A stretch of 54,193 nucleotides of DNA from the NCBI RefSeq assembly GCF_000473085.1, contig NZ_AXBA01000037.1, positions 1 through 54,193 on the forward strand, read 5' to 3'. How positions within the stretch are numbered: position 1 is the stretch's first letter; every line of letters starts with the position of its first letter. The notes beneath the pieces are model-generated. The model was given only the letters and a program-made list of their open reading frames with translations. It did not search any database and was not told where the DNA came from. A program made the translations under genes and the position numbers. The stretch comes from Azorhizobium doebereinerae UFLA1-100 (lineage in GTDB: Bacteria; Pseudomonadota; Alphaproteobacteria; Rhizobiales; Xanthobacteraceae). This document shows, piece after piece, positions 6,901 through 27,612 of this stretch.

Positions 6901-8147
6901 GCGGGCGGCGGTGTCCACTCGGTTTCGATCCGCTGCACCTCGGCATCGCTCGCGAGCTTCAACTGCGACAGCGGTGTCTCCGGATGGGCGATCACCTGCT
7001 CAGCGAGCAGCGCCAAATGTGCGGCCAATTGCTCGGCGAAGTCGCGGGTGAACTGCGCCGCGCGATATTGCAGCCGCACGTCCAGCCGCTCGCCCTCGGC
7101 GAAGCAGAGGAACAGGAGGTCGTTCTGGCAATCCACCGTCTCCAGCGGCAACGGCGTGCCCAGGGCGAACGGCCAGAGGGGCTTCGCCCAAGAGACGGAG
7201 ACATTGGGCAGCTGAATGGCCTCCGAGGGCCGCGCCCGGCGCAGGCCCGCAATGACTTCCTGGAACGACAGACGGTCGTGCTCCCGGGTCGCGCGCCGCT
7301 GCTCCTGCACCTGCTGCACGAGCTGGGCGAAGGTGAGGTCCGGCGTGAAGCTGGCGGTGGCGATCAGTGAATTGACGAACGAGCCCATGGAGCGGGCGAA
7401 CGGCTTGCCGCGCAGGTCGGTGGGATAGAGCACCGCCACCATCTCCTGCTCGGTGTAGCGGTGGACCAGGGCTTGGATCAGGGCGAGCGTGGTGATGAAC
7501 GGGCTGACGTTCATCTGCGGCAGGGGGAGCGAGAAATAGAGATTGCCGTCGCTTTCGCCCCGGTAGCTCACGCGCCGTGTCGGCAGGCCGGCATGGAAAT
7601 CGGATTGCGCCAGGGCCTGAGTCCAATAGGCGCGGTCGGCGTCATGTTCTGGGCTTTCCAGATAGGCGCGCTCATGAGCTTCCCAGGCTGCGGGATCGGG
7701 GCCGGGCTGCGGTGCCGGCTGGTCGTGATAGCGCGCGCCGACCTCTTCTAGCAGCAGCTGGATCGAGCCGCCGTCCAGCACCATGTGGCTGCCGTTGATG
7801 ACGAAGATGTCGCCGCACAGCACGAACCGGAACAGCGGGCCGTTCTCCACGTCGAACGGCTGGGTGATCGCCCATTCCCAGCTGTCCGAACGCTCCAGCA
7901 CCCGCGCCGGCGTGTCCCGGATCACCTGGTAAGGCTTGCCGTCCACCTCGTGAATCACCGAGCGCAGGGCGGGTTGGGCGTCGACCGTCTCGCGCAGCGC
8001 CCGCTCCAGCCGGTCGGCATCGACGCCGGGGTTCAGGCGGTAGACGAACGGCACGAAATAGGCCGAGCTGTCCGGGGCGCGCTTGCACTCCAGCCAGATG
8101 CGCTGGGTGACGATGGCAAGCGGAATGGGGGCCATAGCGACGTCCAT
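3942..8147 (-). CDS. Single-module non-ribosomal peptide synthetase, C-A-PCP-E-like
   Basis: This is a 1401-residue synthetase. The condensation domain (about 5-430) has SHMVLDGG near 120, keeping the catalytic second His but with Ser for the first. The adenylation domain (about 455-905) has all core motifs: LFTSGSTGKPKG near 565, FDLSVYD, GGPTE, YYTGDLGRW, and NGKVDRKAL with the catalytic Lys. The carrier domain has LGGDSL near 957. The GGDS form is typical of carriers that precede an epimerase. The last domain (about 1010-1400) resembles epimerization domains (HHLVTDG near 1122, GHGRE, GWFTTHTP), but the usual Glu before GHGRE is Val. There is no thioesterase or reductase domain. The ATG at 8147 fits the domain start. 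An ATG at 8135 with GGACG upstream is an alternative. The product is unknown. Confidence 0.9.
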   Translation of the reverse strand: MDVAMAPIPLAIVTQRIWLECKRAPDSSAYFVPFVYRLNPGVDADRLERALRETVDAQPALRSVIHEVDGKPYQVIRDTPARVLERSDSWEWAITQPFDVENGPLFRFVLCGDIFVINGSHMVLDGGSIQLLLEEVGARYHDQPAPQPGPDPAAWEAHERAYLESPEHDADRAYWTQALAQSDFHAGLPTRRVSYRGESDGNLYFSLPLPQMNVSPFITTLALIQALVHRYTEQEMVAVLYPTDLRGKPFARSMGSFVNSLIATASFTPDLTFAQLVQQVQEQRRATREHDRLSFQEVIAGLRRARPSEAIQLPNVSVSWAKPLWPFALGTPLPLETVDCQNDLLFLCFAEGERLDVRLQYRAAQFTRDFAEQLAAHLALLAEQVIAHPETPLSQLKLASDAEVQRIETEWTPPPAPRTDLQLLHDAFSDWAARQPEAPALLMRDRVISYGEMDRLTNRIAHALRRRGVKPNTLVGVMMEKGWEQAVACMAILKAGGGYLPINAAWPAERMDSVIAQGDVEIVLSQQRVIDRLSRPALAVDDPAPWADEPDTRLASVNDIGDICYVLFTSGSTGKPKGVTLTHFSVMNTLRNANEQHGIGPGDKSLQLSDFAFDLSVYDIFGMLSAGAGVVIPDEDRHLEPPHWVEIARQHGASIWTSVPMYVDMWVQSGEALPSMRVFMMGGDKIPTDLPERMRPLAPGAAIWSVGGPTETSIISNWYRIGAVDPIWTTIPYGRAMPNQKMFVLDPGLNHCPPFMPGRIFMGGVCLARGYWKDQEKTDAAFVTYPATSERIYYTGDLGRWLPDGQVEFLGRADFQVKINGFRIELGEIEGAIQALPDVKAALVDGQEQPNGKGKFLVAYVVSDKAPDAAQMRAALQDRLPYYMIPRVFVALEQIPLSANGKVDRKALPRPDVAQMPGELPYVAPRTETEAALVDIWQAVLKHEPVGIHDNFYALGGDSLLAVQLGIKAREAGLPLDPTALQRTPTIAELVQHLEPARTVRADEATGEVPLSPMQRYYFTWATERPQQFNVSAAFRCALEPERLKAALQTLVAHHDALRLRFKDGKQFYAEAGVDVPLECADIPLAQVGARAAQMQETIDIAQGPIMRAGLFTTEQGQRLVLICHHLVTDGLSWGAVVTDLQRAYLGQTLAPSGGTYKSWVEGLVRFAATPEAEAQLPYWLDQQGPTFTPDSHQPGARQRDIVTLLSPMLDEAPNHPYERVAAALVDASGQDRLMLHVVGHGREPVVADVDPTRLCGWFTTHTPIVLAGGLTDVAGQLHAMPQHGIAHGALRAYHPRGTELAAQDKVGILYNFFGETWDSSFHGAVLEPPEDDLLYLKNHAFADNPADFWLYLVAIIHDGKLMIRFQYSSLNYREETIRGLAERMRASLEAHLHEPVASQA

Positions 8148-8297
8148 CGTGGCGTTACCGATGCTGGCGCGCAGCGCGACCGCGCGGAGTGGATGGAGTG
8201 GGTGAGGCGGAGGTAAGCGGGCCGGATTGAGGCAGGAAATCGGCCGGCTGGCAAGGAGAATGAACCGGCCGTTGCGGGAGAGGCATCGGCGATTTGT

Positions 8298-8311
8298 TTG
8301 CTGGGGAGCAA
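8298..8311. promoter_or_regulatory. Possible Crp/Fnr-type dyad between the NRPS and DGC genes
   Basis: TTGCTGGGGAGCAA is a perfect TTGCT-N4-AGCAA palindrome in the 225-bp divergent spacer between the NRPS start (8147) and the DGC gene (8373). It matches the TTG-N8-CAA layout of the sites near the denitrification genes. No good -10 box lies at class II spacing on either side, so this is a weaker candidate than the others. Confidence 0.35.
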
Positions 8312-8372
8312 GGATGCGCCGCGGAGCCCTGCGCCACTCTGCGCCCTTCCGATAAGGCAGGGGGAAAGTTCG

Positions 8373-8780
8373 ATGGCTACCGATAAACGCACGTTTCCGC
8401 TCGCCTATTCCTGCTCGGGCTGCTCCAGCGCCGCGCAGATGGCGAATTACGTGGCGCTGTGCCTCGATCGCGCGGGCGATGCGGAAATGTCGTGCATCGC
8501 GGGCGTTGGCGGCGACGTGCCTTCGCTGGTCAGGATCGCCACGTCGGGGCGGCCGGTGGTGGCCATCGACGGCTGCCAGTTGCGCTGCGTGCGGCAGAGC
8601 CTGGCGCGTCACGGCGTGACGCCGGCCGTGGACGTGGTGCTGACCGATCTCGGCGTGAAGAAGCGCTTCCATGCGGAGTTCGACGAGGACGAGGCGGTCC
8701 GGGTCTATCGCAGCACGGTCGCCGCATTGCAGGCGCTGCGCCCGGGCACGGCCGGGTCCGGCGAGCGCCAAGACCGCTGA
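8373..8780 (+). CDS. DGC-family putative zinc-binding protein
   Basis: This 135-residue soluble protein belongs to the DGC family, named for its Asp-Gly-Cys motif, here AIDGCQLRCV near residues 69-78. A second cysteine pair, SCSGCSS, lies at 13-19, and a further Cys is in MSCIAG. Together these could bind Zn or an Fe-S cluster. Members are often found near denitrification, Fe-S or redox genes, but no biochemical role is established that I can name. The ATG at 8373 has AGGGGG at 8358-8363. It is transcribed away from the NRPS and leads the accessory group that continues with MIP18 and DUF2249 genes, so a role in NO or metal stress is an inference from context only. Confidence 0.75.
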   Translation: MATDKRTFPLAYSCSGCSSAAQMANYVALCLDRAGDAEMSCIAGVGGDVPSLVRIATSGRPVVAIDGCQLRCVRQSLARHGVTPAVDVVLTDLGVKKRFHAEFDEDEAVRVYRSTVAALQALRPGTAGSGERQDR

Positions 8781-8805
8781 GCCCAGAGGCCTTCGCACGA
8801 TCTGT

Positions 8806-8819
8806 TTGCGTGCCGACAA
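8806..8819 (+). promoter_or_regulatory. Crp/Fnr (NnrR)-type dyad before the MIP18-DUF2249 operon
   Basis: TTGCGTGCCGACAA, flanked as TTTGCG-TGCC-GACAAA, closely resembles the sites at 18551 and 27735, which share the GACAA half. It lies 54 bp before the ATG at 8874. A weak -10 (GAAGAT, 8842-8847) sits at the class II distance. It is a candidate site for the regulator encoded at 17573. Confidence 0.5.
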
Positions 8820-14006: not shown

Positions 14007-15602
14007 TTGCTGCACCGAGACGTTGCGCCGTTCCGCGATCTGCGGAGCTTCCTCACGCACCTTGATCATGCGGGACAGGTGGTGCGGATCCATGAGCCGG
14101 TTTCCGTCGTGCATGAGATCACCGAGGTCCACCGCCGGGTGGTGAAGGACAACGGGCCGGTGCTCTGGTTCGAGCGCCCGGTTCGGCCGGATGGTTCGCT
14201 TTCGCCCATGCCCCTCGTCACCAACCTCTTCGGCACGGTGGAACGCGTGGCGTGGGGGCTGGGCATCCAGCCCGAGGCGCTTGGCCGGTTCGGCGAGGCG
14301 CTGGCCGAACTGCGCGAGCCGCGCCCCCCGCAGGGCCTGGCCGATGCGTGGCGGAAACTCCCGCTTGCCCGCGCGGCGCTGGCGATGCGGCCGCGGACGC
14401 GCTCATCCGCACCCGTGCAGGAGCGGATCCTCATCGGGCAGGACATCGACCTGCGGGCGCTGCCGGCGCAGATCTGCTGGCCGGGCGAGCCCGCGCCTCT
14501 CATCACCTGGCCGCTGGTCATCACCCGGCCGCCCGAGGCCTCGCCCGCCGACGAGGGCAACATGGGCGTCTACCGCATACAGATTCTGGGGCGGGATCGC
14601 GCGATCATGCGCTGGCTGGCCCATCGCGGCGGCGCCAAGCATCATCACCAATGGCAGGCGCTCGGCCGTGACATGCCAGTGGCGATCGTGATCGGGGCCG
14701 ATCCGGGAACGATAATGGCGGCAGTCATGCCCTTGCCGGAAACCCTCGCAGAACTGAAATTCTCCGGCATCCTGCGCGGCGAGCGGCCGGTTCTCACGCC
14801 CTGTGTCACCGTGCCCCTGATGGTCCCAGCGGAAGCGGAGATCGTCATCGAGGGGCTGGTTTCGGCGGCAGAGACAGCGCCGGAGGGCCCCTATGGCGAC
14901 CACACCGGCTATTACAACGCCGTTGAGGACTTTCCGGTGCTCACCGTCACGGCGGTGACGATGCGGCGGAACCCGCTCTATTTGTCGACCTTCACCGGCC
15001 GGCCGCCCGACGAGCCGTCGCGGATCGGCGAGGCGCTGAACGAGGTCTTCCTGCCCTTGGTCCGCCGCCAGTTCCCGGAGATCGTCGACCTGTGGCTGCC
15101 GCCGGAAGCCTGCTCCTACCGCGTGGCGGTGGCTTCCATCTCCAAGCGCTATCCCGGCCAGGCGCGGCGGCTGATGATGGGGCTCTGGTCCATGCTGCCG
15201 CAATTCACCTACACCAAGCTCCTCATCGTGGTGGATGCGGATATCGACGTGCGCAACTGGGCGGACGTGATGTGGGCGGTGTCGACCCGAGCGGACAGCT
15301 CGCGCGATCTCCTGACCGTCGCCGATACGCCCATCGACTATCTCGATTTCGCTTCGCCCAAGCCCGGTCTCGGCGGCAAGCTCGGTATCGATGCGACTAC
15401 CAAGATCGGACCAGAGACTGAGCGGACCTGGGGTGAGGTGCTGGCCATGGATCCGGCGGTGACGGCGCGCGTGGACGCCATGTGGTCCACGCTCGGCCTT
15501 GCTCTCGGCGGGCAGGGCGGTCAGCGTGTGCCGCGCGCGGCCACCGACCAGGCGAAGGCAATGGCCATGGCCCCGATCCAGGCCAGCGCGGCCAGCGGAT
15601 AG
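14007..15602 (+). CDS. ubiD: UbiD-family prFMN-dependent decarboxylase
   Basis: This 531-residue decarboxylase belongs to the UbiD family, which uses prenylated FMN to remove the ring carboxylate in ubiquinone synthesis. Diagnostic segments are NMGVYRIQILGRDRAIMRWL and HRGGAKHHH in the prFMN/Mn pocket (about residues 185-215), GPYGDHTGYYN (about 295-305), and KPGLGGKLGIDATTK near the end. The start is a TTG at 14007 preceded at 5 bp by a perfect AGGAGG. No in-frame ATG fits better, and the product then begins at the conserved HRDVAPFRDLRSFL. Its neighbourhood (ubiTUV) suggests a dedicated anaerobic quinone route. The final 27 codons overlap convergently with nnrS. Confidence 0.9.
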   Translation: MLHRDVAPFRDLRSFLTHLDHAGQVVRIHEPVSVVHEITEVHRRVVKDNGPVLWFERPVRPDGSLSPMPLVTNLFGTVERVAWGLGIQPEALGRFGEALAELREPRPPQGLADAWRKLPLARAALAMRPRTRSSAPVQERILIGQDIDLRALPAQICWPGEPAPLITWPLVITRPPEASPADEGNMGVYRIQILGRDRAIMRWLAHRGGAKHHHQWQALGRDMPVAIVIGADPGTIMAAVMPLPETLAELKFSGILRGERPVLTPCVTVPLMVPAEAEIVIEGLVSAAETAPEGPYGDHTGYYNAVEDFPVLTVTAVTMRRNPLYLSTFTGRPPDEPSRIGEALNEVFLPLVRRQFPEIVDLWLPPEACSYRVAVASISKRYPGQARRLMMGLWSMLPQFTYTKLLIVVDADIDVRNWADVMWAVSTRADSSRDLLTVADTPIDYLDFASPKPGLGGKLGIDATTKIGPETERTWGEVLAMDPAVTARVDAMWSTLGLALGGQGGQRVPRAATDQAKAMAMAPIQASAASG

Positions 15603-16651
15603 GCGAGGCCGGGAAACAGGAAGACGCCGGCGCGGGCAAGGCCGGCGAAGGACATCAGCGCGGCGGCTGAGCCGATGACCCCGGCGGGCATGGGTCTGCG
15701 GTCGCGCTGGACCGCGGTCTTCACCATCATGGTGACGGTGGTCAGCCCGATGCCGCCGATGGTGATGAGGTGGAGCGGCGCGCTCTCCGGCCACGGCGGG
15801 TCCAGCACCCGCGCTCCCAGCCCCGCGAGGCCGGCGGCGATGAAGGCCTGCGCCAAGACGAGGGCGAGCAGATCCAAGCTCGCAAGGCGCAGGCCCGCCC
15901 GCCAGTCGGCGAGCCGGGCCAGGATGGCGGCGCAGCCTATCCAGGCGCAACAGGCGAGCAGGGCGGCGGGCGCGCCGGCGAGAAGGGACAGGGCGGTTGC
16001 CAGCAACGCCGCCAATATCACCAGTTCGAGGCCGGGGCGCGGCGGAAGCCGCTCGCCGCCGGACCGCTGCGCCAGGCCCGACAATGCCGCGCCGAGGATG
16101 CGTCCGCCCATGGCCAGGATCAGCCCGACCACGGCGAAGACCGCCACCATGACGGCGGCCGCTCCGATCCGCGGGCTTCCTCCCACGGCCGGGACCTGCG
16201 AGGTGGCTTCGCACAGGAGGAGAACCGCCAGGGGAACCGGGAAGACGTAGTTCTGGCCGCGCTTGATCCCCCGCAGAAAACCGCGGGCGCCGATGATCGC
16301 GATGGTGCCCGTCGCGGCCATGGTCAGCACGGCCTGGGGGAGGGCGAATGGGTCGGGCGGAAGGAACCATGCCAGCCGCGCCGCGGTCCATAGGGCGAGG
16401 GCCGTGAGGATGGTTTTCGCCGTGGCCTTGGTGAACAGGAAGCCGGCCGCCACCGCCAGCGTGTAGCCGAAGACCAGTTCGTGCGCATGCCAGAAGGGGG
16501 TGGCGAAGCCGGGCGGCGCGAAAATCCAGACCCCGACGGCCGCGACGGCCTGGAGCATGGCGGCCGGAAAGAAGAGGTGATGTGCCGCGATCGCCATCCC
16601 GCCCGCCTCAAGGTTACGTGCAGGATCCCACGGCAGGAGCGGCCGATCCAT
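15521..16651 (-). CDS. nnrS: NnrS, haem-copper membrane protein linked to NO tolerance
   Basis: This 376-residue protein has about twelve membrane segments and the family marks of NnrS: HHLFFPAAMLQAV at the N-terminus, FWHAHELVFGYTLAVAAGFLFT with the conserved His residues, MGGRILGAA, and HLITIGGIGLTTVTMM. NnrS proteins bind haem and copper and protect cells from NO stress during denitrification. The frame opens at ATG 16651. An ATG at 16597 with GAGGCGGG before it would remove 18 residues and is an equally good start. The 3' end overlaps the ubiD gene by 82 bp tail to tail, so both proteins are encoded on opposite strands of the same DNA there. Confidence 0.88.
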   Translation of the reverse strand: MDRPLLPWDPARNLEAGGMAIAAHHLFFPAAMLQAVAAVGVWIFAPPGFATPFWHAHELVFGYTLAVAAGFLFTKATAKTILTALALWTAARLAWFLPPDPFALPQAVLTMAATGTIAIIGARGFLRGIKRGQNYVFPVPLAVLLLCEATSQVPAVGGSPRIGAAAVMVAVFAVVGLILAMGGRILGAALSGLAQRSGGERLPPRPGLELVILAALLATALSLLAGAPAALLACCAWIGCAAILARLADWRAGLRLASLDLLALVLAQAFIAAGLAGLGARVLDPPWPESAPLHLITIGGIGLTTVTMMVKTAVQRDRRPMPAGVIGSAAALMSFAGLARAGVFLFPGLAYPLAALAWIGAMAIAFAWSVAARGTR

Positions 16652-16792: not shown

Positions 16793-17248
16793 CTACTTGC
16801 TCGCCGTTTTCGTGGCGTCCAGCTTGCCGAACAGGGCGGCAAAAGTCTGCTTGGCCTTGCCGGGATGGCTGACCGTCTTGGCGGCATCCTCATTCCCGGG
16901 CTGCCCCACGACAATCAGGCCCACCATGCCCATGCCGTAGTGCGGCTTGCAGCGGACGCCGTAGACGCCCTCCTTGTCGAAGACGACCACCACCTCCTCG
17001 CTGATCTTGCCGGCGATCGGCTTTGCGCCCTCCGGCAGCATGCCGTCGATCGTCTCCACATTGTGGCCCTTGTCGGCCGGGACGAACTTGACGGTATCGC
17101 CGGGTTGAACCTTGACCAGGGCCGGTTCGAAAACCATCACGCCTTCGGCCCCGCGATTGAGCAGCTTCACTTCCACCTCGGCGGCCGAAGCCGTTCCCGC
17201 GGCGCTCAAGAGAGCGACCATTGCCCCGAGCATGAGAGCCTTACGCAT
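16793..17248 (-). CDS. Pseudoazurin, periplasmic blue copper electron donor
   Basis: This 151-residue type I copper protein has a clear signal peptide (residues 1-22, LLSAAGTASA then AEVEV). The copper ligands are visible: His in DKGHNVE, and Cys, His and Met in CKPHYGMGM with the C-x2-H-x4-M spacing of pseudoazurins. It carries electrons in the periplasm to copper nitrite reductase and/or nitrous oxide reductase. The C-terminal helical tail (HPGKAKQTFAALFGKL) is typical. The ATG at 17248 has AGGAGAA upstream. An Fnr-type dyad and a good -10 lie in front, so it is probably switched on with the nos genes. Confidence 0.93.
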   Translation of the reverse strand: MRKALMLGAMVALLSAAGTASAAEVEVKLLNRGAEGVMVFEPALVKVQPGDTVKFVPADKGHNVETIDGMLPEGAKPIAGKISEEVVVVFDKEGVYGVRCKPHYGMGMVGLIVVGQPGNEDAAKTVSHPGKAKQTFAALFGKLDATKTASK

Positions 17249-17572: not shown

Positions 17573-18271
17573 ATGGCAGCAATTGACCGTTCGCTCGTCG
17601 CGGAACTGCCCTTGTTCCAGGGCCTCGGCCCTGGCGATCTCGACGACATTCTCTCCATCGCACGCTCCGTCCGCTATCCGAAGGGCAGCAATGTCTTCAC
17701 GCAGGATCAGGTCGCCGAATGGTTTTTCGTGCTGTTGCACGGCCACCTGCGGGTGGTGAAACTGACACCCGCCGGGCGGCAGGTCGTCGTGCGCCACGTG
17801 GTTGCCAGCGAGATGTTTGGCGTCGCGATGGCCATCGGCCGCTCCACCTATCCGGCCACAGCGACCGCCATCGTCGACAGCATCGCCTTGGTCTGGCCTT
17901 CGGCGGCCTGGTCGGGGCTGGTAGCGAAATTCCCGTCCCTCGCCCTCTCCACGCTGGCGACGGTGGGCGCGAGGTTGCAGGATGCCCATACGCGTGTGGT
18001 GGAAATGTCCACGGAGGAAGTCGAGCGCCGGGTTGCCCACGCGCTTCTGCGGTTGGCACAGCAGGCGGGGCGCAAGACGGAGAGCGGCATCCAGATCGAT
18101 TTTCCCATCAGCCGCCAGGATGTCGCTGAGATGACCGGAACCACCCTGCACACGGTCAGCCGCATTCTGAGCGCCTGGGAGGACCAGGGCCTCGTGGAGG
18201 GGGGGCGCCAGAAGATCGTCATCCGCGATCCTCACCGGCTGTTCCTCCTGGCGGAAAGCTCATCGGACTAA
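17573..18271 (+). CDS. nnrR: Crp/Fnr-family regulator, probably of the NnrR/DNR type
   Basis: This 232-residue regulator has a cyclic-nucleotide-like sensor fold (about 15-125, with KGSNVFTQDQVAEWFFVLLHGHLRVVKL), a dimerisation helix, and a Crp-type winged helix (ISRQDVAEMTGTTLHTVSRILSAWEDQGLV, about 180-210) whose recognition helix is THTVSR-like. It lacks the N-terminal cysteine cluster of Fnr, so direct O2 sensing by a [4Fe-4S] cluster is not expected. This fits NnrR/DNR proteins, which respond to NO through haem. Sitting between pseudoazurin and the nos genes, it is the obvious candidate to bind the TTG-N8-CAA sites in this window. The symbol is by context. Confidence 0.75.
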   Translation: MAAIDRSLVAELPLFQGLGPGDLDDILSIARSVRYPKGSNVFTQDQVAEWFFVLLHGHLRVVKLTPAGRQVVVRHVVASEMFGVAMAIGRSTYPATATAIVDSIALVWPSAAWSGLVAKFPSLALSTLATVGARLQDAHTRVVEMSTEEVERRVAHALLRLAQQAGRKTESGIQIDFPISRQDVAEMTGTTLHTVSRILSAWEDQGLVEGGRQKIVIRDPHRLFLLAESSSD

Positions 18272-18612: not shown

Positions 18613-19605
18613 TCAGGCGGTCAAGGTCTCGAATCCTTGCGGGCCCAGGAGATGGACCTGCCCCCCGCCGATCGCCGCCAGCGTCCGCACGATGTCCTCG
18701 CGGGGCATCAGGCTGAACGCGGTGGACAAGGCGTCCGCCGCGGTGGCGGTCGGCAGGACCGTGGTCACGCTCCCATAGCGGCTGGCGCATTGCCCCGAAT
18801 GGGGATCGAAGAGATGGTTGAGGCGACCGTCGGGATCGAAAACGAAACCGTAGGCCCCCGATGTCGCGACCGCCTGGTCGACAGCGGGCAAGGTCTTCAC
18901 CGTCCGGCCCGGCGCGGCGGGATCGGCGATTGCCACCTGCCAGGGACGGCCCAGGGGATGGCTGCCGAGAACGCGCGTCTCCCCCATGTCCACGAGGCTG
19001 TGGTCGAGGCCCTCCGACCTCAGCAGGGCGACGATGCGATCCGTGACGTAACCCTGGGCGATGCCATTGAGCGTCAGTGCCGTGCCGCGGGGCATCACGA
19101 TGCGATCCGCGTCCACCGAAACCCGCTGGTAGCCGACCCGCGCGAGCGCCGCAGCCCTGGCCTGCGGCGAGGGGCCGGAGGGATCGGCTCCGGCCGCCGA
19201 AAAATGATCGAGATAGAGGGTCCACAGTGGCTGGACCGTCGGATCGAAGGCGCCGCCGGTCACCTCCGCATAATGCAGCGCCGCCGTGAGGAGCTCCACC
19301 AGCTCCGGAGGCGGTCCCTCAAGGACGCCAGCCCGGTTCAGCCGGTTCAGCGATGATGTCGGCTCGTAGAGGCTGAAGATGTAGCCCAGCCGCCGCACTT
19401 CATTGAGCGCCCGCCCGATAAGCCGGTCCGCCGTGGCACGGACGGGATGGTGGATCTGCATGACGGCGTCGGCGCCGAGCGCAGTGCCCTGCCAGGTGAC
19501 GAGATTCTCCTGCGCATGAGCTGCCCGGCCGGCGGGAAGGAGCGCCAGCCCGGCCGCCGCCGCACTGATGCCGATGAAGCGCCGGCGGGATGGTGCGTGA
19601 GCCAT
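18613..19605 (-). CDS. nosX: NosX, ApbE-type FMN transferase for NosR
   Basis: This 330-residue periplasmic protein of the ApbE family attaches FMN covalently to NosR, which needs the flavin to support nitrous oxide reduction. A twin-arginine signal is visible (SRRRFIGISAAAAGLALLPA, residues 6-25). The family signatures are YEPTSSLNRLNR, GGAFDPTVQPLW, LNGIAQGYVTDR, DMGETRVLGSHP and VATSGAYG. The start at ATG 19605 is chosen because GAGGGGAAC precedes it. A TTG at 19620 overlapping the nosL stop is less likely. It is the last gene of the nosRZDFYLX run. Confidence 0.92.
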   Translation of the reverse strand: MAHAPSRRRFIGISAAAAGLALLPAGRAAHAQENLVTWQGTALGADAVMQIHHPVRATADRLIGRALNEVRRLGYIFSLYEPTSSLNRLNRAGVLEGPPPELVELLTAALHYAEVTGGAFDPTVQPLWTLYLDHFSAAGADPSGPSPQARAAALARVGYQRVSVDADRIVMPRGTALTLNGIAQGYVTDRIVALLRSEGLDHSLVDMGETRVLGSHPLGRPWQVAIADPAAPGRTVKTLPAVDQAVATSGAYGFVFDPDGRLNHLFDPHSGQCASRYGSVTTVLPTATAADALSTAFSLMPREDIVRTLAAIGGGQVHLLGPQGFETLTA

Positions 19606-19616
19606 GGGTGTTCCCC

Positions 19617-20171
19617 TCAATTCTCGACATGGCGCGTCGGCGCGCCCGCGGGCAAGGCCTCGGTCTGGGTATCGCCGCCCAGCACATAGTCCCTCGGAAC
19701 TTCCGAGAACCCGACCACGCGACCGCCGTTTCTGGCCGCAAATGCGGCTGCGGCGACAGGGTCCGAGAACGGCACCGCCTCATCCGCGCCCATGCCGCTT
19801 TTCTGCCGGCTGCCGATCACGAACACCGCCTTGCGGGCATCCACCCAATTGTCCGCGCCGGGGGCGTCCCAACTGGGTGCCTTGCCCATGTCGGAGACGT
19901 AGATCGCCAGAATGTCCTTGGGCTCCTCTGGGAGCATGGTGAAGGCGAAGGCGTCGCGGGCCGAGGAGAACCAGAACGGCGTGATCGCGCTGGCGACGAT
20001 GATCTGCCCCTTGGGGCCGGGGTGCTCGAGCACGTTCATGCCGCAATAATTGCCGATCGCCTCGGCGGTAAGGCTCTGCGGCGGCGGCTGAACCGTCGCG
20101 GACTGCTTCTCGTTGCAGCCGAGAAGCGCCAGCGTTGCGAATGCGAGCGCGGCAGCCATCAGCAGCTTCAT
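19617..20171 (-). CDS. nosL: NosL, copper-delivering lipoprotein
   Basis: This is a 184-residue outer-periplasm lipoprotein. Its lipobox is LALLGC, with the lipidated Cys near residue 19. The Cu(I)-binding segment NYCGMNVLEHPGPKG follows at about 41-55. NosL hands copper to the NosDFY complex and to NosZ when the CuZ centre is built. The ATG overlaps the nosY stop as ATGA, and the gene ends 12 bp before the nosX start, so it sits inside a coupled operon. The last 20 residues are Ala/Pro-rich and not conserved. Confidence 0.92.
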   Translation of the reverse strand: MKLLMAAALAFATLALLGCNEKQSATVQPPPQSLTAEAIGNYCGMNVLEHPGPKGQIIVASAITPFWFSSARDAFAFTMLPEEPKDILAIYVSDMGKAPSWDAPGADNWVDARKAVFVIGSRQKSGMGADEAVPFSDPVAAAAFAARNGGRVVGFSEVPRDYVLGGDTQTEALPAGAPTRHVEN

Positions 20172-20998
20172 AACTCTCTCCTCGAGAATGCGAACGTCGC
20201 CAGAGCCAGCGGCAGGAAAACCCAGGCGGCGAGCGTGGCCAGCAAGACGCGCGGCCCCAGCCCGGCGGTTCCGGCCAGCCCGGCCATGCCGGCGAAGGTG
20301 CTGACGCTGGCGAAGCCGGTCAGGTTGAACAGGCGATAGGCGTCGGTGGGATTGAGCAGGAGCAGTGCGTTCAGCGCGCCGCCCGAAATGATCTTGCCCT
20401 GATCCACCACCAGAAGCCCCAGCAGCGCCATGTCGTAAATCAGCACGAACAGCAGCCAGATGCCGATCGCCAGCCCGGCTGCGGTGCCGCGATCGCGCGC
20501 GAGGGCACTGACGAGATAGCCGATAGCGATGAAAATCGCGCCGAGCAGGATGGACGAGCCGATCATCGAAGCGAATGCGAGCCAGCTCGCCGCATCCACC
20601 ACGGCGCCGGTCAAGGCGAGCGCGAGCGCCGCGGCGCCATAGCCCAGCACGGTAGCGAAGGCGAGGATCGCGACGTGACCGACGAATTTGCCGAGCATCA
20701 CCTGCCAGCGCCCGATGGGATAGCTCAGCATCAGGAGCATGGTGCCGCGCTCCATCTCTCCGACGATGGCGTCGTGCGAGATCAGCAGCGCGATCAGCGG
20801 CAGCAGGAAGATCGTCAGGCTGGAGAGGCTGACGATGACGACGTCAAGCGCCCGGACGCCCACATTGCCGGTCGGCGCGCTGCCGAGGAAGGTGAGTGAC
20901 AACGCCAGCCCGGCCAGCAGCAGAGTGGTGGCAAGGACCCAGCGGTTGCGCAGGCCCTCCTGGATTTCCTTGCCCGCGACGATGAGAATGTTTCTCAT
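20168..20998 (-). CDS. nosY: NosY, ABC-type permease for CuZ maturation
   Basis: This 276-residue integral membrane protein has six predicted helices. It starts MRNILIVAGKEIQEGLRNRWVL and contains MERGTMLLMLSYPIGRWQVMLGKF, the family loop that contacts the ATPase. With NosF and NosD it forms the machinery that supplies sulfur and helps insert copper for the CuZ site of nitrous oxide reductase. Both ends are coupled: ATGA overlap with nosF upstream and with nosL downstream. No defect is visible. Confidence 0.93.
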   Translation of the reverse strand: MRNILIVAGKEIQEGLRNRWVLATTLLLAGLALSLTFLGSAPTGNVGVRALDVVIVSLSSLTIFLLPLIALLISHDAIVGEMERGTMLLMLSYPIGRWQVMLGKFVGHVAILAFATVLGYGAAALALALTGAVVDAASWLAFASMIGSSILLGAIFIAIGYLVSALARDRGTAAGLAIGIWLLFVLIYDMALLGLLVVDQGKIISGGALNALLLLNPTDAYRLFNLTGFASVSTFAGMAGLAGTAGLGPRVLLATLAAWVFLPLALATFAFSRREL

Positions 20999-21912
20999 GC
21001 CGGCATCTCCTGCGACATCAGGAAATGAGCATAGAGATCGTCAAGGGTTGGGGGGACGATGTCGAGGTCGTCGACCGTCCCGTGCGCGACCGAGCGCTTC
21101 AGAACCTCGATCTTCTGCTCCAGCCCCACCTGGACCTCCACGACATGGCCATTGATGCGGCGGCAGGTGCCGATCGGACCAACCCATTCGGGAATCGCCG
21201 CCAGACTGTCCGCCGGCGCGGCGATCCGGATGCGCACCGGCAAGCAGGCGATACGACGCAGGTCGTCCACGGAGCCATTGGCCACCATGATGCCGCGGTT
21301 CATGATGATCACCCGCTCTGCACGCTCTTCCAGCTCCGTGAGGGCGTGGGACGACAGGAGCACCGTCGCTCCACGGTCGCGCAATTCCTGGATGATCTCG
21401 TAGAAGCTGTGTCGCAGCGCCGGGTCCAGCCCCGTGGTCGGCTCGTCGAGCAGCATCACGGCGGGAGCGCCGATCAGCGCCTGGGCGAGGCCGAGCCGTT
21501 GGCGCATGCCCTTGGAGTAAGTCCCAACCCGGCGATCCGCCGCAGCGCCGAGGCCGACGCGATCGAGAAGATCACCCATCCGGGCCACCGGTTCGCGCTT
21601 CAGGCGGGCATAGAAGGCAAGCGTCTCCCGCGCGGTCAATGCGGTGTTGAAGGCGACGCTCTCCGGCAGGTAGCCGAGGCGCCGGCGAGCGGCAAATTGC
21701 CCGGCGGCGGGGTTCTCGCCCAGCACCTGGACCGTCCCGGCGGTTGGATGGATGAGCCCGAGCATCAGTTTCATCAGCGTCGTCTTGCCCGCGCCATTGT
21801 GGCCGACGAGCGCCACCGTCTCGCCTGGGGGGAGCGCGAGCGAAACCGCGCGCACAGCCTCGATGGCGCCGAAGCGGCGGGTGACGTCCTGGAGGTTTAT
21901 CGACGCGGTCAC
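20995..21912 (-). CDS. nosF: NosF, ABC ATPase for CuZ maturation
   Basis: This 305-residue ATPase energises NosY/NosD in building the CuZ centre. The motifs are Walker A GHNGAGKTT (about 38-46), Q-loop region GYLPESVAF, signature YSKGMRQRLGLAQAL, Walker B VMLLDEPTTGLD and the switch His in LLSSHALTE. The start is GTG at 21912, which overlaps the nosD stop as GTGA. The longer frame to 22074 lies entirely within nosD and is not used. The C-terminal 80 residues form the accessory domain usual for NosF. Confidence 0.92.
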   Translation of the reverse strand: MTASINLQDVTRRFGAIEAVRAVSLALPPGETVALVGHNGAGKTTLMKLMLGLIHPTAGTVQVLGENPAAGQFAARRRLGYLPESVAFNTALTARETLAFYARLKREPVARMGDLLDRVGLGAAADRRVGTYSKGMRQRLGLAQALIGAPAVMLLDEPTTGLDPALRHSFYEIIQELRDRGATVLLSSHALTELEERAERVIIMNRGIMVANGSVDDLRRIACLPVRIRIAAPADSLAAIPEWVGPIGTCRRINGHVVEVQVGLEQKIEVLKRSVAHGTVDDLDIVPPTLDDLYAHFLMSQEMPA

Positions 21913-23303
21913 GGCTGGGCTCCGTCGGTTCTCGGACGGCGCCCGGGCGGCGAAATCAGCGGATGGGTGTCGACGACACCTCCCGGCAGCAAGGCGGGGA
22001 ATTGCGACTGGGCCCAACGGATCACCTGGACCGCGGGGCTGTTGGCAAGCACCTTGGCCTGCGGATTGGTCCACAGCACCTTGTCCATCAGGTCGTTCGG
22101 CCGATAGGCGGTCTCGGCGATGCCGTCCCCGTTCAGGTCGAACGCCGGATTGTCGCTCCAGTAATTGCCGCGCCCGCCCCTCGACCAGTCCAGATACCTG
22201 CTGCCCACGTATTTCACCTGGTTCTGGTTGCCAACGAAGGCGTTGCCGACGATCTCGTTGCCTTCCGACCCGGCAGTGAAATGAATGCCGATCTCGCAGC
22301 CTTCAAACCAGTTGTCGCGGAATCTGTTTTGGTTCGCATTATAGATGAAGACGCACTTCTCCGGTCCCACGCGGGCGCCCTGTGCACCGGTGGCGGGGGG
22401 CTCGTCGGGGGGCGCCATGCCGCGCTCCGCCGGATCAGTGGCGCGCATGCCGGAGGTCGCCCAGCGTTCCGCCGGCTGCACTCCGCCGAGCACCGCATTG
22501 CCGGTGATCTCGGAGCCGTTGGCGAAATTGAACAGGAAGCCGCGATCGCGGTCATGATCGGAGACGTTGCCGCGGACCACCAGCCGATTGGAGAACATCA
22601 GCGCAAAGCCGACGGTGTTTCCGACGGAGCGATTGTCCGTGATGCGGCTGTCGTTCGTGTACATATAATGAACCGCGAATCTCAGGTCGCGAAAGGTGTT
22701 TCCGCTGAACACGTTGTTCTTGCTGCTGATGGAAAATATGCCGTCGCGGCCGTAGCTGATGTCGTTGTCGAGCACCTGCGCACCGGGCGCGTTCCACACC
22801 GATACGCCGTTTCCTGCCTCGTTCACCCGGCCGGTCTTGATGCCGATGATGCGGTTCCGGCGCGCGACGGCATCCGGCGCGCCGTGCAGATAGATGCCGT
22901 AGAGATTGCCCTCCAGCACGTTGTTCTCGACCACCGCGCCGGCGGCGTCCTGCTCGACGAATACACCGGAGTCCATGGCCGGAAGATCTGTTCCGGATCC
23001 CCGGATGGTCAGGCCGCGCACCACCGCGCCGGGCGCCGACACGAGGATGACGTTGCCGGTCCCCGATCCCTCCACCACCGCGCCCGGCTCGCCCTCAAGG
23101 ATGAGCCGATGGGAAACCCGCAGAGGGCCGAGATGCCTGCCCGCCCTCAGGGTAATGGTGTCGCCGGGAGCGGCATGGTCCAGCAAGTCCTGCACGCCCG
23201 CGTCGCCGGGCGCTACGCGGAGTTGTGCAGCCCATGCGGGCATGGCGAGGGTGGCGGCCAGTGCGGCCGCCACCCCCAATGCTGCTATATCGGACCTTAC
23301 GGA
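21909..23303 (-). CDS. nosD: NosD, periplasmic beta-helix copper/sulfur maturation protein
   Basis: This is a periplasmic right-handed beta-helix protein of 464 residues with a signal peptide (ALGVAAALAATLAMPAWAA). The repeats are easy to see: NNVLEGNLYGIYLHGA, NDISYGRDGIFSISS, NTFRDLRFAVHYMYTNDS. It works with NosFY and NosL to assemble CuZ. The GTG at 23303 lies 10 bp past the natural nosZ stop and gives a clean signal peptide. A TTG at 23333 would overlap the nosZ tail. An unusual Pro/Ala-rich insert of about 35 residues (around MRATDPAERGMAPPDEPP) interrupts one helix turn before EKCVFIYNANQN. Confidence 0.88.
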   Translation of the reverse strand, partial: SVRSDIAALGVAAALAATLAMPAWAAQLRVAPGDAGVQDLLDHAAPGDTITLRAGRHLGPLRVSHRLILEGEPGAVVEGSGTGNVILVSAPGAVVRGLTIRGSGTDLPAMDSGVFVEQDAAGAVVENNVLEGNLYGIYLHGAPDAVARRNRIIGIKTGRVNEAGNGVSVWNAPGAQVLDNDISYGRDGIFSISSKNNVFSGNTFRDLRFAVHYMYTNDSRITDNRSVGNTVGFALMFSNRLVVRGNVSDHDRDRGFLFNFANGSEITGNAVLGGVQPAERWATSGMRATDPAERGMAPPDEPPATGAQGARVGPEKCVFIYNANQNRFRDNWFEGCEIGIHFTAGSEGNEIVGNAFVGNQNQVKYVGSRYLDWSRGGRGNYWSDNPAFDLNGDGIAETAYRPNDLMDKVLWTNPQAKVLANSPAVQVIRWAQSQFPALLPGGVVDTHPLISPPGRRPRTDGAQP

Positions 23304-23313
23304 CACGGCAGTC

Positions 23314-25248
23314 TCACGCGTTCTTCGGCTCAACGAACATCCGGCCCCGCATTTCCATGTGCATGGCGTGGCAGAACCAGGTGCAGAAGAACTAGTACAC
23401 GCCGGCGGCGTCGGCCGTGAACGTCACGGACGATGTCTGCTGCGGCCCGATCTCCATGTTGATGCCGTAGTTCACGATGCAGAAGCCGTGGGTCAGGTCT
23501 TCCACGTCGTCGATATTCGTGATGTACACGGTGACCTCGTCGCCCTGCTTGACCTGGAAGGTCTCCAGGCCGAACGCGGGGGCGCTCGAGGTCATGTAGA
23601 CGCGGACCTTGTTGCCGTCGCGGATGACCGTGGAATCGGCTTCGAGGTTCACCTTGTCGAGCGCCGCCTGCTTGCGGGCGTCCTCAAAATATGGGTCGTC
23701 CCGCTTCCAGATGCTGGCGATCTTGCCGTCCAGCTTGGAGCGGTGGACGATCACCGCGTCATGCGGCTCGGCGAAGCTCGGCCCGTCGTGAACTACCACC
23801 ATCTTGTCGCCGGAAATATCGATCAACTGGTCGTTCTCGGGCTTCAACGGGCCAACGTTGAGGAAGCGGTCCTTGGAGAACTTGTTGAGCGAGATCAGCC
23901 ACCGGCCATCCGCCTCCTTGGTCTCGCCCATCGACGCATGGTTGTGGCCGGGCTGATACTGCACGTCCACCTTCTGCGAGACCGGATTGACCTTCTCGCC
24001 CTTGTAGGCGCGCTTCGCCAGATCGATGTTCCACTTGACCACCTGGCTGTCCAGGAACAGCGTCGTATAGCCGTTTCCGCGCCCGTCGAAGGCGGTGTGC
24101 AGCGGGCCGAGGCCGAGTTCCGGCTCCGCCACCACCACATCGCGCGGCTTGATCTTGTCATCGAACAGATTGTCGAACAGCCGGACGTCGAAGACGGTGA
24201 CGGTGGGCGACAGCTTGCCGTTGGCCACCACATGGATGCCGTCGGGCGAGGTGTTGATGCCGTGCGGGCTGTTGGGCACCGGAACGTAGCGCGTATATGG
24301 CGACCCCTTCCGGCCGTCCAGCACCGGGACGCCGTTCATCTCCTTGAAGTCGCCCTTCTTCACCCCTTCCTCGATCCGCCTCAGGTTGAAGATGACCACC
24401 CAGTCCTGCTCCTTGGCCGTCATGTCGGCCAGGTTCATTCCCATCTCGGAATTGTAGCAGGTGGAGAAGGCGTACTTGCCCTGGAAATCGGCGTCCGTGT
24501 TGTCGAGGTTGCCGTCGACCACCACCTGCCAGGCGATCTTCATGCTGTCGCCGTCCACCGCGCTGAACACCGAGCGATACTGCGACTTGTCGTCGAGGAC
24601 CTTGCCGTCGTTCGGCAGCGGCACTTCGTATTCGCCATTGCAGAACACGTAGCCGGTGCGCGGATACTTCTGCGGCCGCATGCCGTGAATGGTGTACTGG
24701 TTGGGCAGCTCGATGATCTTGTCGCACTTCATGACGTCGGTGCGGATGCGGGCGAGCCGTGTATTGGCCTTGTCGTTGATGAAGATGTAGCGGCCGTCAT
24801 AGGTGCCGTCCGTGAACGACATGTGGGGATGATGGCAGTCACCGTTCATCCATACGCCCAGGCGCGTCTTCAGGCGCTCGCGGGTCGCCGGAAGGAGGCC
24901 CTCGGTCATGATCTTCCGGCTTTCGTTGGTCAGGCCCCAGCCGGTCGCGCTGCAACGGTTGAACACGGGAATCCGCATGAGCTCGCGCATGGAAGGCAGG
25001 CCGATGATGCGCAACTCGCCGGTCTGGCCGCTGGAGAAGAAGACGTAATATTCGTCGAGCTCGCCTGGGCCGACCTCGAACTTCTGATGGCCGGGACCGG
25101 CGGTGCGCGCGGCCTGGGCCGCGGCGGGGGAGGAGAGGGCGAAGGGCCCGAGGCCGGCGCCGGCGGCCGCGCTGGCCGCGCCGGCGACGACGGCCGTACC
25201 CAGAATGTGTCGACGATTGACGCCGGCGTTGTCATCTCTGTTGGTCAT
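23314..25248 (-). pseudogene. nosZ: nosZ nitrous oxide reductase with premature amber stop before CuA site
   Basis: NosZ is the periplasmic multicopper enzyme that reduces N2O to N2. A Tat signal ([10 protein letters not shown]) is followed by the seven-bladed propeller with CuZ ligands, including CHHPHMS near residue 135. The cupredoxin domain proceeds to TADAAGVY at residue 618, where codon 619 (23392-23394) is TAG. Reading on in the same frame gives FFCTWFCHAMHMEMRGRMFV and ends at TGA 23314-23316. That tail holds the CuA ligands Cys, Trp, Cys, His and Met. Homologues have Trp at the stop position, so a single G-to-A change turned TGG into TAG. Without readthrough the product ends just before the CuA loop and should be inactive. 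Full length would be 644 codons. Confidence 0.93.
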
Positions 25249-25263
25249 GGTGGACTCCAGGGC

Positions 25264-27612
25264 TCAAGAGGTGGGGGGAAGGGGCGCGTCCACGGTTGCG
25301 GGCCGATCGATCGGCCGGCCGTTGTGGGTAATGGTGGGCTTCGCTTTGCCGCCGCTGAGCATCGAGGGCGACGAAAGGGCTTCGAACCGCTCCCGTTTCA
25401 GGCGCACCTGGATCATGTGCGGGCAGCGGTGGTCGTCGTGGTAGAGCATCTGGCAGTGCATGCAGTAGATGCACTCGTTGACGTTGATGTGCCCTTCGGG
25501 GTGAATGGACTGAACCGGGCATTCCTTCGCGCAGCGCTGGCACGGCGATCCGCATTCGGACCACCGCTTCAGCCATTCGAACGTGCGCATCCGGCCGGGA
25601 ATGGCGAGCGCGGCGCCCAGCGGGCACAGGTAGCGGCAGAAGAACCGCTCGATGAACAGTCCCGCACACAGCAGGGTGAGGGCGTAGACCACATATGGCC
25701 ATTCGCGCGCGAACTTCAGGATGATCGCGGTCTTGAAGGGCTCGACCTCGGCCAGGGTCTCCGTCAGGGCGACGGAGTAGAGCGAAAGCCCGAACAGGCC
25801 GATGAACAGGATGTATTTTATCGGCCACAGTCGCTCGTGCAGGCCCCAGGGTACCGTGACCTGAGGGACCTTGAGCCACTTCGCCACCGTGCTGAGCAGT
25901 TCCTGCAATGCCCCGAACGGGCAAAGCCAGCCGCAGAACGGCCCGCGCCCCCAGAACAGTAGGCCCACCGCCACCGCCGACCACAGGATGAAGGTGAGCG
26001 GCGAGGCAAGGAAGAACTCCCATTTGAACCCGGTGATGAGGGCGCTGGTGAAGGTGACGACGTTCACCACCGATAGTTGAGCATTGGCATACCAGCCGAG
26101 CCAGACGAGGATGAAGAGCAGGAACGCCCGGCGCACCCACTCATAGACGGCCGGGCGGCGGACCAGCGCATCCTGAAAGAAGAAGATGGCCGTCAGGGCG
26201 AGGAGGGTGAATGCGGTCAGCCCGATGGCGGCGACGTTGCCGCGCCAGATCCGCATCCAGAGCGGATCCTCCAGCAAGTCTCCCGCAGGGGCCGCCTGTG
26301 CGGCCGGCGACATTGCGGATGCGGCCGCCTGGGGCGGGGAAGGGGCCGGGCGTTCCTGCTTGAGATAAGTGTCGGGGAGCGCATATCCCAGCTCGAACGT
26401 CTGGAAGGCCTTCTCGCGGGTGGCTGTCGCCCGCTGCACCAGGAGCTGGATTTGCCAGGGCGCTGCGGGGTCGAGGGTGAGCTCATTGGGCACCACGAAC
26501 AGCGACACTTCGCGCAGAACGGGCGCGCCCTGGGCGGCAAGGCCACCGAGACGGGTGTGGTTGCGATCGCGGAAGCGGGTGCTGGATCCGTCCTGCAACA
26601 GTTCGATGCGGTCGAAAATGCCGCCCCGGACGTAGCCCGACCCCTTGAAGGAATAGGCGCCGTCCCCGGCGATCAGGATGGCCTGCTGGCCTGGCTTCAG
26701 CTGCGCCATCAGGCGGTCGTAGCCGTCGTTGCCCAGCAGGCTGCGGCCGATGGTGGGGACGGTGACGAGCGCGGCATAGAGATCGATGAAGACATCGTCC
26801 TCTGCGCCCGGCTCCGGGTTTTCTGCCGCGGTCTTGTTGCCGGCCTTAGCGAAGGCGTCGCTGACCTCGCCGATCGAAAGGTGGAGGCGGCGAACCGATC
26901 CGTCGCCGAGCAGGTCGTTCCAGTCGCGAATGTCACTCTTCGTGAAGTCGATCGCCTTCTGCGGGAGCGCCGCGCCGGTGCCACCGCCCGCCACGCTGCC
27001 CCCGGCCACCCGTCCGCTGCGGATGAGCCGCACGGCAGAGCGCACCACGCTGTCGGCCATGACCAGCACAGTGACGGTCGCGCCACTGACGATGTCGACC
27101 TGAGGCGGATTTTCGGCGCCCGTGGCGATCGGCCGGATGTCCCGGCCGATCAGGGAATTCATCGTGGCGATGATGCGCTGTACCGGAATGCCGATCAGGA
27201 CGATCGGCTCCTTGTGATCCACCAGCTTTATGCCGGAGATGACACCGTTGGTGTCAATTCCGACAAGTAAGCTGATTGGCTTTCCTGAATATCCGGTCGC
27301 ATTGGCGAAGTCGGTATTGAGATAAAGGTATCCGCGCAGCCGCTCCCCGCTGAAGACAGGAACGATGGGCGGCGAGCCCTCTGGGGGCCCGAAGCGATCC
27401 GCGTCAGCAAAAAACTCGCCCGGCTGCGCGGCTCCCAAATAATCCTTCAATTCAGCGGCAGCGTGGGCTGGCGCTACAAAGAAGACCGCACCTGCCGCGA
27501 GTACAATGATGCCGGCTAGGCAGGTCGTCGAAAATCGTATGCTCGCAAGCTGAACAGCCGCAAACAGTCGAATCCGCGCAAGCCAAACCAGGGCGCGAGA
27601 TAGAACAGGCAA
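25264..27612 (-). CDS. nosR: NosR, membrane flavo-iron-sulfur protein for N2O respiration
   Basis: This 782-residue polytopic protein is needed for nosZ expression and for electron flow from quinol to NosZ. An N-terminal hydrophobic segment (about 28-50) is followed by a periplasmic FMN-binding domain with SGATVT near residue 175, where Thr carries the FMN added by NosX. After several membrane helices come CGWLCPFGALQE and CRYLCPLGAA motifs, then two ferredoxin-type clusters, CGSPCQRCAKECP (about 685) and CIYCMHCQ (about 711). All cluster cysteines are present. It is the first gene of the nos operon. Its stop lies 15 bp before the nosZ start. No defect is seen here, in contrast to nosZ. Confidence 0.94.
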   Translation of the reverse strand: MPVLSRALVWLARIRLFAAVQLASIRFSTTCLAGIIVLAAGAVFFVAPAHAAAELKDYLGAAQPGEFFADADRFGPPEGSPPIVPVFSGERLRGYLYLNTDFANATGYSGKPISLLVGIDTNGVISGIKLVDHKEPIVLIGIPVQRIIATMNSLIGRDIRPIATGAENPPQVDIVSGATVTVLVMADSVVRSAVRLIRSGRVAGGSVAGGGTGAALPQKAIDFTKSDIRDWNDLLGDGSVRRLHLSIGEVSDAFAKAGNKTAAENPEPGAEDDVFIDLYAALVTVPTIGRSLLGNDGYDRLMAQLKPGQQAILIAGDGAYSFKGSGYVRGGIFDRIELLQDGSSTRFRDRNHTRLGGLAAQGAPVLREVSLFVVPNELTLDPAAPWQIQLLVQRATATREKAFQTFELGYALPDTYLKQERPAPSPPQAAASAMSPAAQAAPAGDLLEDPLWMRIWRGNVAAIGLTAFTLLALTAIFFFQDALVRRPAVYEWVRRAFLLFILVWLGWYANAQLSVVNVVTFTSALITGFKWEFFLASPLTFILWSAVAVGLLFWGRGPFCGWLCPFGALQELLSTVAKWLKVPQVTVPWGLHERLWPIKYILFIGLFGLSLYSVALTETLAEVEPFKTAIILKFAREWPYVVYALTLLCAGLFIERFFCRYLCPLGAALAIPGRMRTFEWLKRWSECGSPCQRCAKECPVQSIHPEGHINVNECIYCMHCQMLYHDDHRCPHMIQVRLKRERFEALSSPSMLSGGKAKPTITHNGRPIDRPATVDAPLPPTS

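Follow-up and report, generated by a model that had tools for sequence, protein, structure and literature searches.

A probable nonsense mutation directly before the CuA motif of nosZ in Azorhizobium doebereinerae UFLA1-100

INTRODUCTION

Does Azorhizobium doebereinerae UFLA1-100 still make a complete nitrous oxide reductase? The question is raised by a 54,193-nucleotide stretch of its draft genome (contig NZ_AXBA01000037.1; the whole stretch is referred to here as the window), in which a sequence-only reading had found nosZ to be broken by a single amber codon amid intact companion genes. Such a stop might be a genuine nonsense mutation, an artefact of the consensus, assembly or culture, a codon that is read through, or the normal end of a shorter protein that is useful by itself. 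In the available text of PMC7660919, both copper centres of NosZ, CuA and CuZ, are described as essential for activity, with the CuA of one monomer lying near the CuZ of the other monomer.

RESULTS

The nosZ frame and its internal stop

The nosZ gene occupies positions 25248-23314 of the minus strand as a frame of 645 codons (644 codons plus the stop), interrupted once, by a TAG at codon 619 (23394-23392, minus strand). Past the TAG, 25 codons continue in register, FFCTWFCHAMHMEMRGRMFVEPKNA, and are followed by the natural TGA at 23316-23314, so that the claim of an amber codon in a frame that runs on to its natural stop is borne out. Third-position GC is 0.92 in codons 620-644 vs 0.90 in codons 1-618. 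When the stop is written as X, the frame matches the solved NosZ chain 2iwf_A with 907.1 bits, compared with 847.5 bits for the truncated frame, and the tail aligns without gaps to the C-terminal end of that chain. Judged by sequence comparison, the family match of the tail is not a product of chance. A premature in-frame stop is thus combined with homology that continues past it, one of the two marks by which we recognise a nosZ pseudogene made by nonsense mutation, the other being the loss of N2O reduction.

The truncated frame (23392-25248, minus strand) would encode 618 amino acids with a Tat-type signal, a beta-propeller bearing the CuZ histidine motifs, and the start of the CuA cupredoxin domain. 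It belongs to clade I, scoring 1057.5 bits against TIGR04244 (TAT-dependent nitrous-oxide reductase; cut-off 625) over profile positions 2-605 of 627. Following the ligand positions of Pseudomonas stutzeri NosZ, we take the six CuA ligands to be H587, C622, W624, C626, H630 and M633. H587 alone precedes the stop; the other five lie in the untranslated remainder (23314-23391, minus strand), which consists of codons 620-644 and the TGA. The predicted protein accordingly lacks a complete CuA site (a His plus C-x-W-x-C-x3-H-x2-M), and with this ligand assignment the loss of the CuA motif asserted in the sequence-only reading holds. The motifs HHPH, IHGM, SPHG, PLHTAF, GHNHA and EPHD, on the other hand, all precede the stop and supply the seven histidines that we assume, again from P. 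stutzeri NosZ, to be the CuZ ligands.

The amber codon also creates the only ACTAGT in the window, a SpeI site. As a separate observation, CTAG is strongly avoided throughout the window, where it occurs 17 times compared with about 155 expected from base composition; the amber codon accounts for one of the 17.

Relatives of nosZ

The sequence-only reading had placed Trp at this site in homologues and had proposed a comparison with near relatives, which we carried out on 109 loci. Eighty of these (L003-L082) are the best 80 of 86 loci encoding a NosZ relative in a scan of species genomes, and 29 (L083-L111) come from a scan of the GTDB family (391 genomes); the two sets of genomes partly overlap. 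The family scan gave a match in 77 genomes, the strain's own included, with 79 full-length rows, of which 29 were read besides its own and the other 49 stand outside the 109-locus count. Trp aligns with codon 619 in 109/109 loci, as claimed, and a stop as a trait common to the relatives can be dismissed. Direct reading of the codon gave TGG in 100 loci; the remaining nine are on the other strand, and there the codon was left unread. These relatives are clade I, Tat-type NosZ proteins of the same family (Bradyrhizobium, Afipia and others) with at most 85% identity over the aligned part, and all of those read differ from the strain's nosZ in keeping the Trp.

The genome contains a single nosZ, which rejects a compensating second copy. 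The nosZ search found none in two other genomes of the genus (G001 and G002), and a near search of PLSDB for a near-identical plasmid copy returned 71 records, none of which covers 80% of the query at a single location. A Chelatococcus plasmid has the annotated order nosRZDFYLX, the same gene order as here.

The nos operon

All six companion genes are open and match their protein kinds, and their reported intactness is confirmed. On the minus strand, nosR (25264-27612, the longest frame with a putative TTG start) scores 801.6 bits against NF046105, below the cut-off of 1000. It is followed beyond nosZ by nosD (21909-23306, with a likely GTG start; TIGR04247, 453 bits) and by nosF (20995-22074, longest frame), an ABC ATPase that matches only ABC ATPase models and has relatives in 80 of 81 loci. 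Then come nosY (20168-20998), an ABC-2 permease (PF12679, 155.6 bits), and nosL (19617-20171), a copper chaperone (PF05573 NosL, 160.4 bits). The last gene is nosX (18613-19620), an ApbE-type flavin transferase (NF007774, 74.3 bits, below the cut-off of 498). Beside the operon lie a Crp/Fnr, FixK-like regulator on the plus strand (17573-18271; best match NF050806 FixK at 75.6 bits, below the cut-off of 300) and, on the minus strand, a pseudoazurin that is a candidate electron donor (16793-17248; TIGR02375, 159.2 bits, above the cut-off of 109.85) and an NnrS-family protein (15521-16651; PF05940, 159.6 bits).

Stops occur in some aligned relatives of the companion proteins, in 11/79 for nosR (at residue 19 or 756-779 of 782), 5/81 for nosD (468-472 of 474) and 12/80 for nosF (11-53 of 359). 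Because these stops sit at gene ends, they reflect alignments that overrun the genes, or a nosF start set too far upstream, and broken companion genes in relatives can be rejected. The true nosF start is probably downstream of the longest-frame start, since in the 12 relatives the stops fall opposite its first 11-53 residues.

For nosD, a GTG is the likely start; it comes seven bases downstream of the natural stop of nosZ and 85 downstream of the amber codon, and a TTG at 23333 shares the nosD frame. Because ribosomes would now stop 85 rather than seven bases upstream of nosD, translation of the downstream maturation genes nosDFYLX may be somewhat reduced.

Absence of decay

Decay was tested in NosZ, NosR, NosD and NosY by comparing each sequence with those columns that do not vary among the others. 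Relatives below 60% identity were first removed, as was one member of every pair that shared 97% or more. Before the stop, the strain's NosZ is changed at 0/163 invariant columns (72 sequences including its own, range 0 to 5). The corresponding values are 2/224 for NosR (49 sequences), 2/126 for NosD (37) and 1/65 for NosY (44). Under a looser rule (225 columns conserved at 97% among 81 relatives), NosZ differs at Y255F, A295G and codon 619. On this comparison there is no decay of NosZ before the stop, in keeping with the suggestion that the loss is very recent. The bound on age is weak, however: by the rule of three, 0/163 limits neutral change to roughly 2% per site, and the recency is unproven.

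Interrupted genes elsewhere in the genome

A codon-score gene finder was applied to 374,193 bases, made up of the window and 16 other stretches of the genome, and it predicted 312 ORFs, of which 261 end in TGA, 36 in TAG and 15 in TAA. Two scans looked for in-frame coding past a stop; the first omitted continuations that are themselves predicted ORFs, and the second covered those. The first scan gave four places: nosZ, and one each in L203, L210 and L202, the latter three appearing on inspection to be distinct genes, each starting at an ATG of its own. The second gave 30 in-frame neighbour pairs, nosR-nosZ among them, which were judged by eye over the 50 residues past each stop; 29 look like separate genes, and the remaining one is a BNR-domain gene (L207:15021-16436, contig C83) interrupted by one TAA in frame. 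The two pieces of this gene match PF13088 at profile positions 1-203 and 206-277, and a search of solved structures with the second piece gave no match. Genes interrupted by an in-frame stop therefore number 2/312 in the 374 kb, nosZ and the BNR-domain gene, a level that would be expected of ordinary pseudogenes. The BNR-domain gene can mean either a real pseudogene or an imperfect consensus.

Transfer RNAs

A tRNA with a CUA anticodon was found at none of 47 tRNA places in the genome (RF00005 at E 0.1), with ARAGORN run on the stretches around all 47 and on the window. One tRNA-like place is short (C21:29812-29876, 33.9 bits); ARAGORN calls it tRNA-Gly GCC, which the genome also has in normal form, and it is perhaps a tRNA remnant. 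A tRNA-SeC is present at C72:108995-109085, and about 9 kb away, at C72:117696-119120, a molybdopterin-oxidoreductase match contains one in-frame TGA; matches of this kind with one TGA are present in G001 and G002 as well. These sequences suggest selenocysteine recoding in the strain's genome.

Denitrification genes

Profile searches of the strain's genome, an assembly of 104 contigs rated 99.99% complete, found narG over its cut-off and narI. They gave no match for nirK or nrfA, and no NapA over its cut-off. The nirS (cytochrome d1) profile PF02239, whose cut-off is low (25.5), gave three weak rows of 28.2, 23.4 and 20.3 bits in two proteins; two rows are marked as above the cut-off, one of them only together with its neighbours. 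Both proteins fit PQQ/YVTN beta-propeller models best, and nirS is rejected. A norB is likewise rejected, the only three matches to PF00115 (COX1 family) being CtaD, CyoB and CcoN, each above its NCBIfam cut-off. The assembly thus lacks the combination by which we recognise a canonical denitrifier, nirK or nirS plus norB. It is possible that a plasmid is missing from the 104-contig draft.

Genomic setting

Between 29 kb and 47.7 kb, all 14 predicted genes of the window have G002 homologues arranged in the same order, with 63.8 to 94.5% identity, the last of the G002 homologues being cut by the end of the compared stretch. Of these 14 genes, the first five match G001 as well. To the left of 29 kb, no gene has a specific match in the adjoining 20 kb of G001 or G002, generic ABC-ATPase and AMP-binding matches having been set aside, and a search elsewhere in those genomes for the NnrS-family gene gave weak matches only. 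Positions 1-28900 hold the nos operon, the NnrS and pseudoazurin genes, a UbiD, two U32-peptidase-family proteins that look like UbiU/UbiV, and a non-ribosomal peptide synthetase gene, a set without a specific match beside the glycogen-debranching gene conserved in G001 and G002. Because there is no counterpart beside the same place in either genome, the nos operon lies within a stretch of about 28 kb, reaching the contig end, which was either acquired in this strain or else deleted or relocated in G001 and G002. The GC content of the nos part is slightly lower than that of the sequence to its right (0.652 vs 0.683), and a repeat search at the island edge found only short, weak repeats.

Two further observations concern neighbouring genes. 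The peptide synthetase (3942-8819) has 1625 residues with condensation, AMP-binding and PP-binding domains, and an MFS transporter gene lies at 2719-3945. In G001, the homologous glycogen-debranching gene (L189, C1:3138745-3141186) was matched across two in-frame TGA codons.

DISCUSSION

We consider it probable that the amber codon is a genuine nonsense mutation leading to an inactive NosZ of 618 amino acids. In this scenario, a clade I (Tat-type) nosZ that is intact in all other respects acquired one nonsense change, and ribosomes would stop after residue 618. The product would retain the export signal and the CuZ histidines and would lack the last 26 residues. Because five of the six CuA ligands would be missing, the protein should be unable to build CuA or to hand electrons on to the CuZ centre, and the strain should no longer reduce N2O. 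The predicted inactivity follows from the removal of CuA ligands together with the description, in the part of PMC7660919 at hand, of both copper centres as essential. That the mutation is present in the living strain, and that the shortened protein is inactive, is what we infer.

There are several other scenarios. The living strain's nosZ may be intact, the TAG reflecting either a base-calling error or a variant confined to a single stock culture. An undecayed NosZ (0/163) with all companion genes open is what a working operon would look like, and would be expected equally of a functional gene with a wrong base call; the call itself rests on one draft consensus in 104 contigs, within which a second stop-cut gene (the TAA of L207) was found in 374 kb. 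Against this, single-base errors are rare in good drafts, and a mere two stop-cut ORFs among 312 can be explained by ordinary pseudogenes as well. An artefact is thus an unlikely explanation, although one to be taken seriously. Functional readthrough, in which UAG 619 would be decoded often enough to yield full-length NosZ, is very improbable, in agreement with the earlier ranking of this option as the least likely and now with the search for a suppressor tRNA that had been proposed. The frame past the stop is conserved up to its last residue, but a young mutation would leave the same conserved tail. The genome may recode UGA, given its tRNA-SeC and the molybdopterin-oxidoreductase match, but selenocysteine machinery reads UGA and not UAG. 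With no CUA anticodon at the 47 tRNA places and TAG as the ordinary end of 36/312 predicted ORFs, amber suppression or UAG recoding can be rejected. Among those 36, nosZ alone looks interrupted: the two other TAG-ended ORFs with an in-frame continuation (in L210 and L195) are apparently followed by separate genes with their own ATG. A stop at codon 619, moreover, occurs in 0/109 relatives.

A related idea is that the 618-residue protein is useful by itself, as a CuZ-only or otherwise altered NosZ. The upstream residues are conserved and the CuZ histidine motifs are present, as this would require; it is opposed by the cut through the cupredoxin domain itself, by the lack of any such truncation in the 109 relatives, and by the need for both centres described in the available text of PMC7660919, and we give it very little credence. 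Equally remote is a mixed scenario in which a UAG at the rim of CuA is tolerated or weakly read through, and full-length NosZ, made in traces or under special conditions, acts as a translational throttle on N2O respiration.

Internal stops in nosZ are already known. In Brucella melitensis, the accessible text of PMC10714718 reports one in eleven genomes, and that of PMC11271283 dates it through ancient DNA to before about 8,700 years ago. Set side by side by description, both cases are alphaproteobacterial nosZ genes silenced by an internal stop (PMC10714718, PMC11271283, in the portions available). They differ in that the B. melitensis stop is known from eleven strains and has an ancient-DNA date, whereas ours comes from one draft genome in which no nir or nor gene was found. 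An Accumulibacter clade IC strain, according to a citation in the available part of PMC8407102, has a nosZ with an internal stop and decreased transcripts; it resembles our case as an environmental bacterium with a stop inside the nosZ frame, and differs as another organism, compared by published mention alone. In 15 Pseudogulbenkiania strains, a nosZ-like pseudogene lies downstream of nosZ, which on the accessible text of PMC5017806 is not clearly comparable. Among the matches listed in a search of titles and abstract openings on nosZ stops and pseudogenes, there is no account of this strain's nosZ stop. The present case adds another example, in which we hold the mutation to be real with moderate confidence, and its novelty is small.

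Finally, the gene content bears on what the loss would mean. The sequence-only reading had proposed that the strain would become an N2O producer by losing NosZ; the gene content does not support this, since narG and narI are present but no recognisable nirK, nirS, nrfA or norB. The loss would therefore turn an N2O sink into a non-sink, rather than a denitrifier into a source. With neither a nitrite reductase nor an NO reductase recognisable in the assembly, it is likely, on gene content, that the strain was a nitrate-respiring scavenger of N2O before the mutation and is now without its sink.

The wider meaning is modest. Gene-presence surveys would score this strain as an N2O sink, though its NosZ should be dead. 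A survey of the co-occurrence of nirK, nirS and nosZ left out sequences with stop codons, according to the available text of PMC4250227, and such cases are therefore dropped or miscounted, depending on the method. If the nonsense mutation is real, A. doebereinerae UFLA1-100 would be a freshly broken N2O sink that has a nitrate reductase and no recognisable nitrite or NO reductase, and it could show when N2O respiration becomes dispensable.
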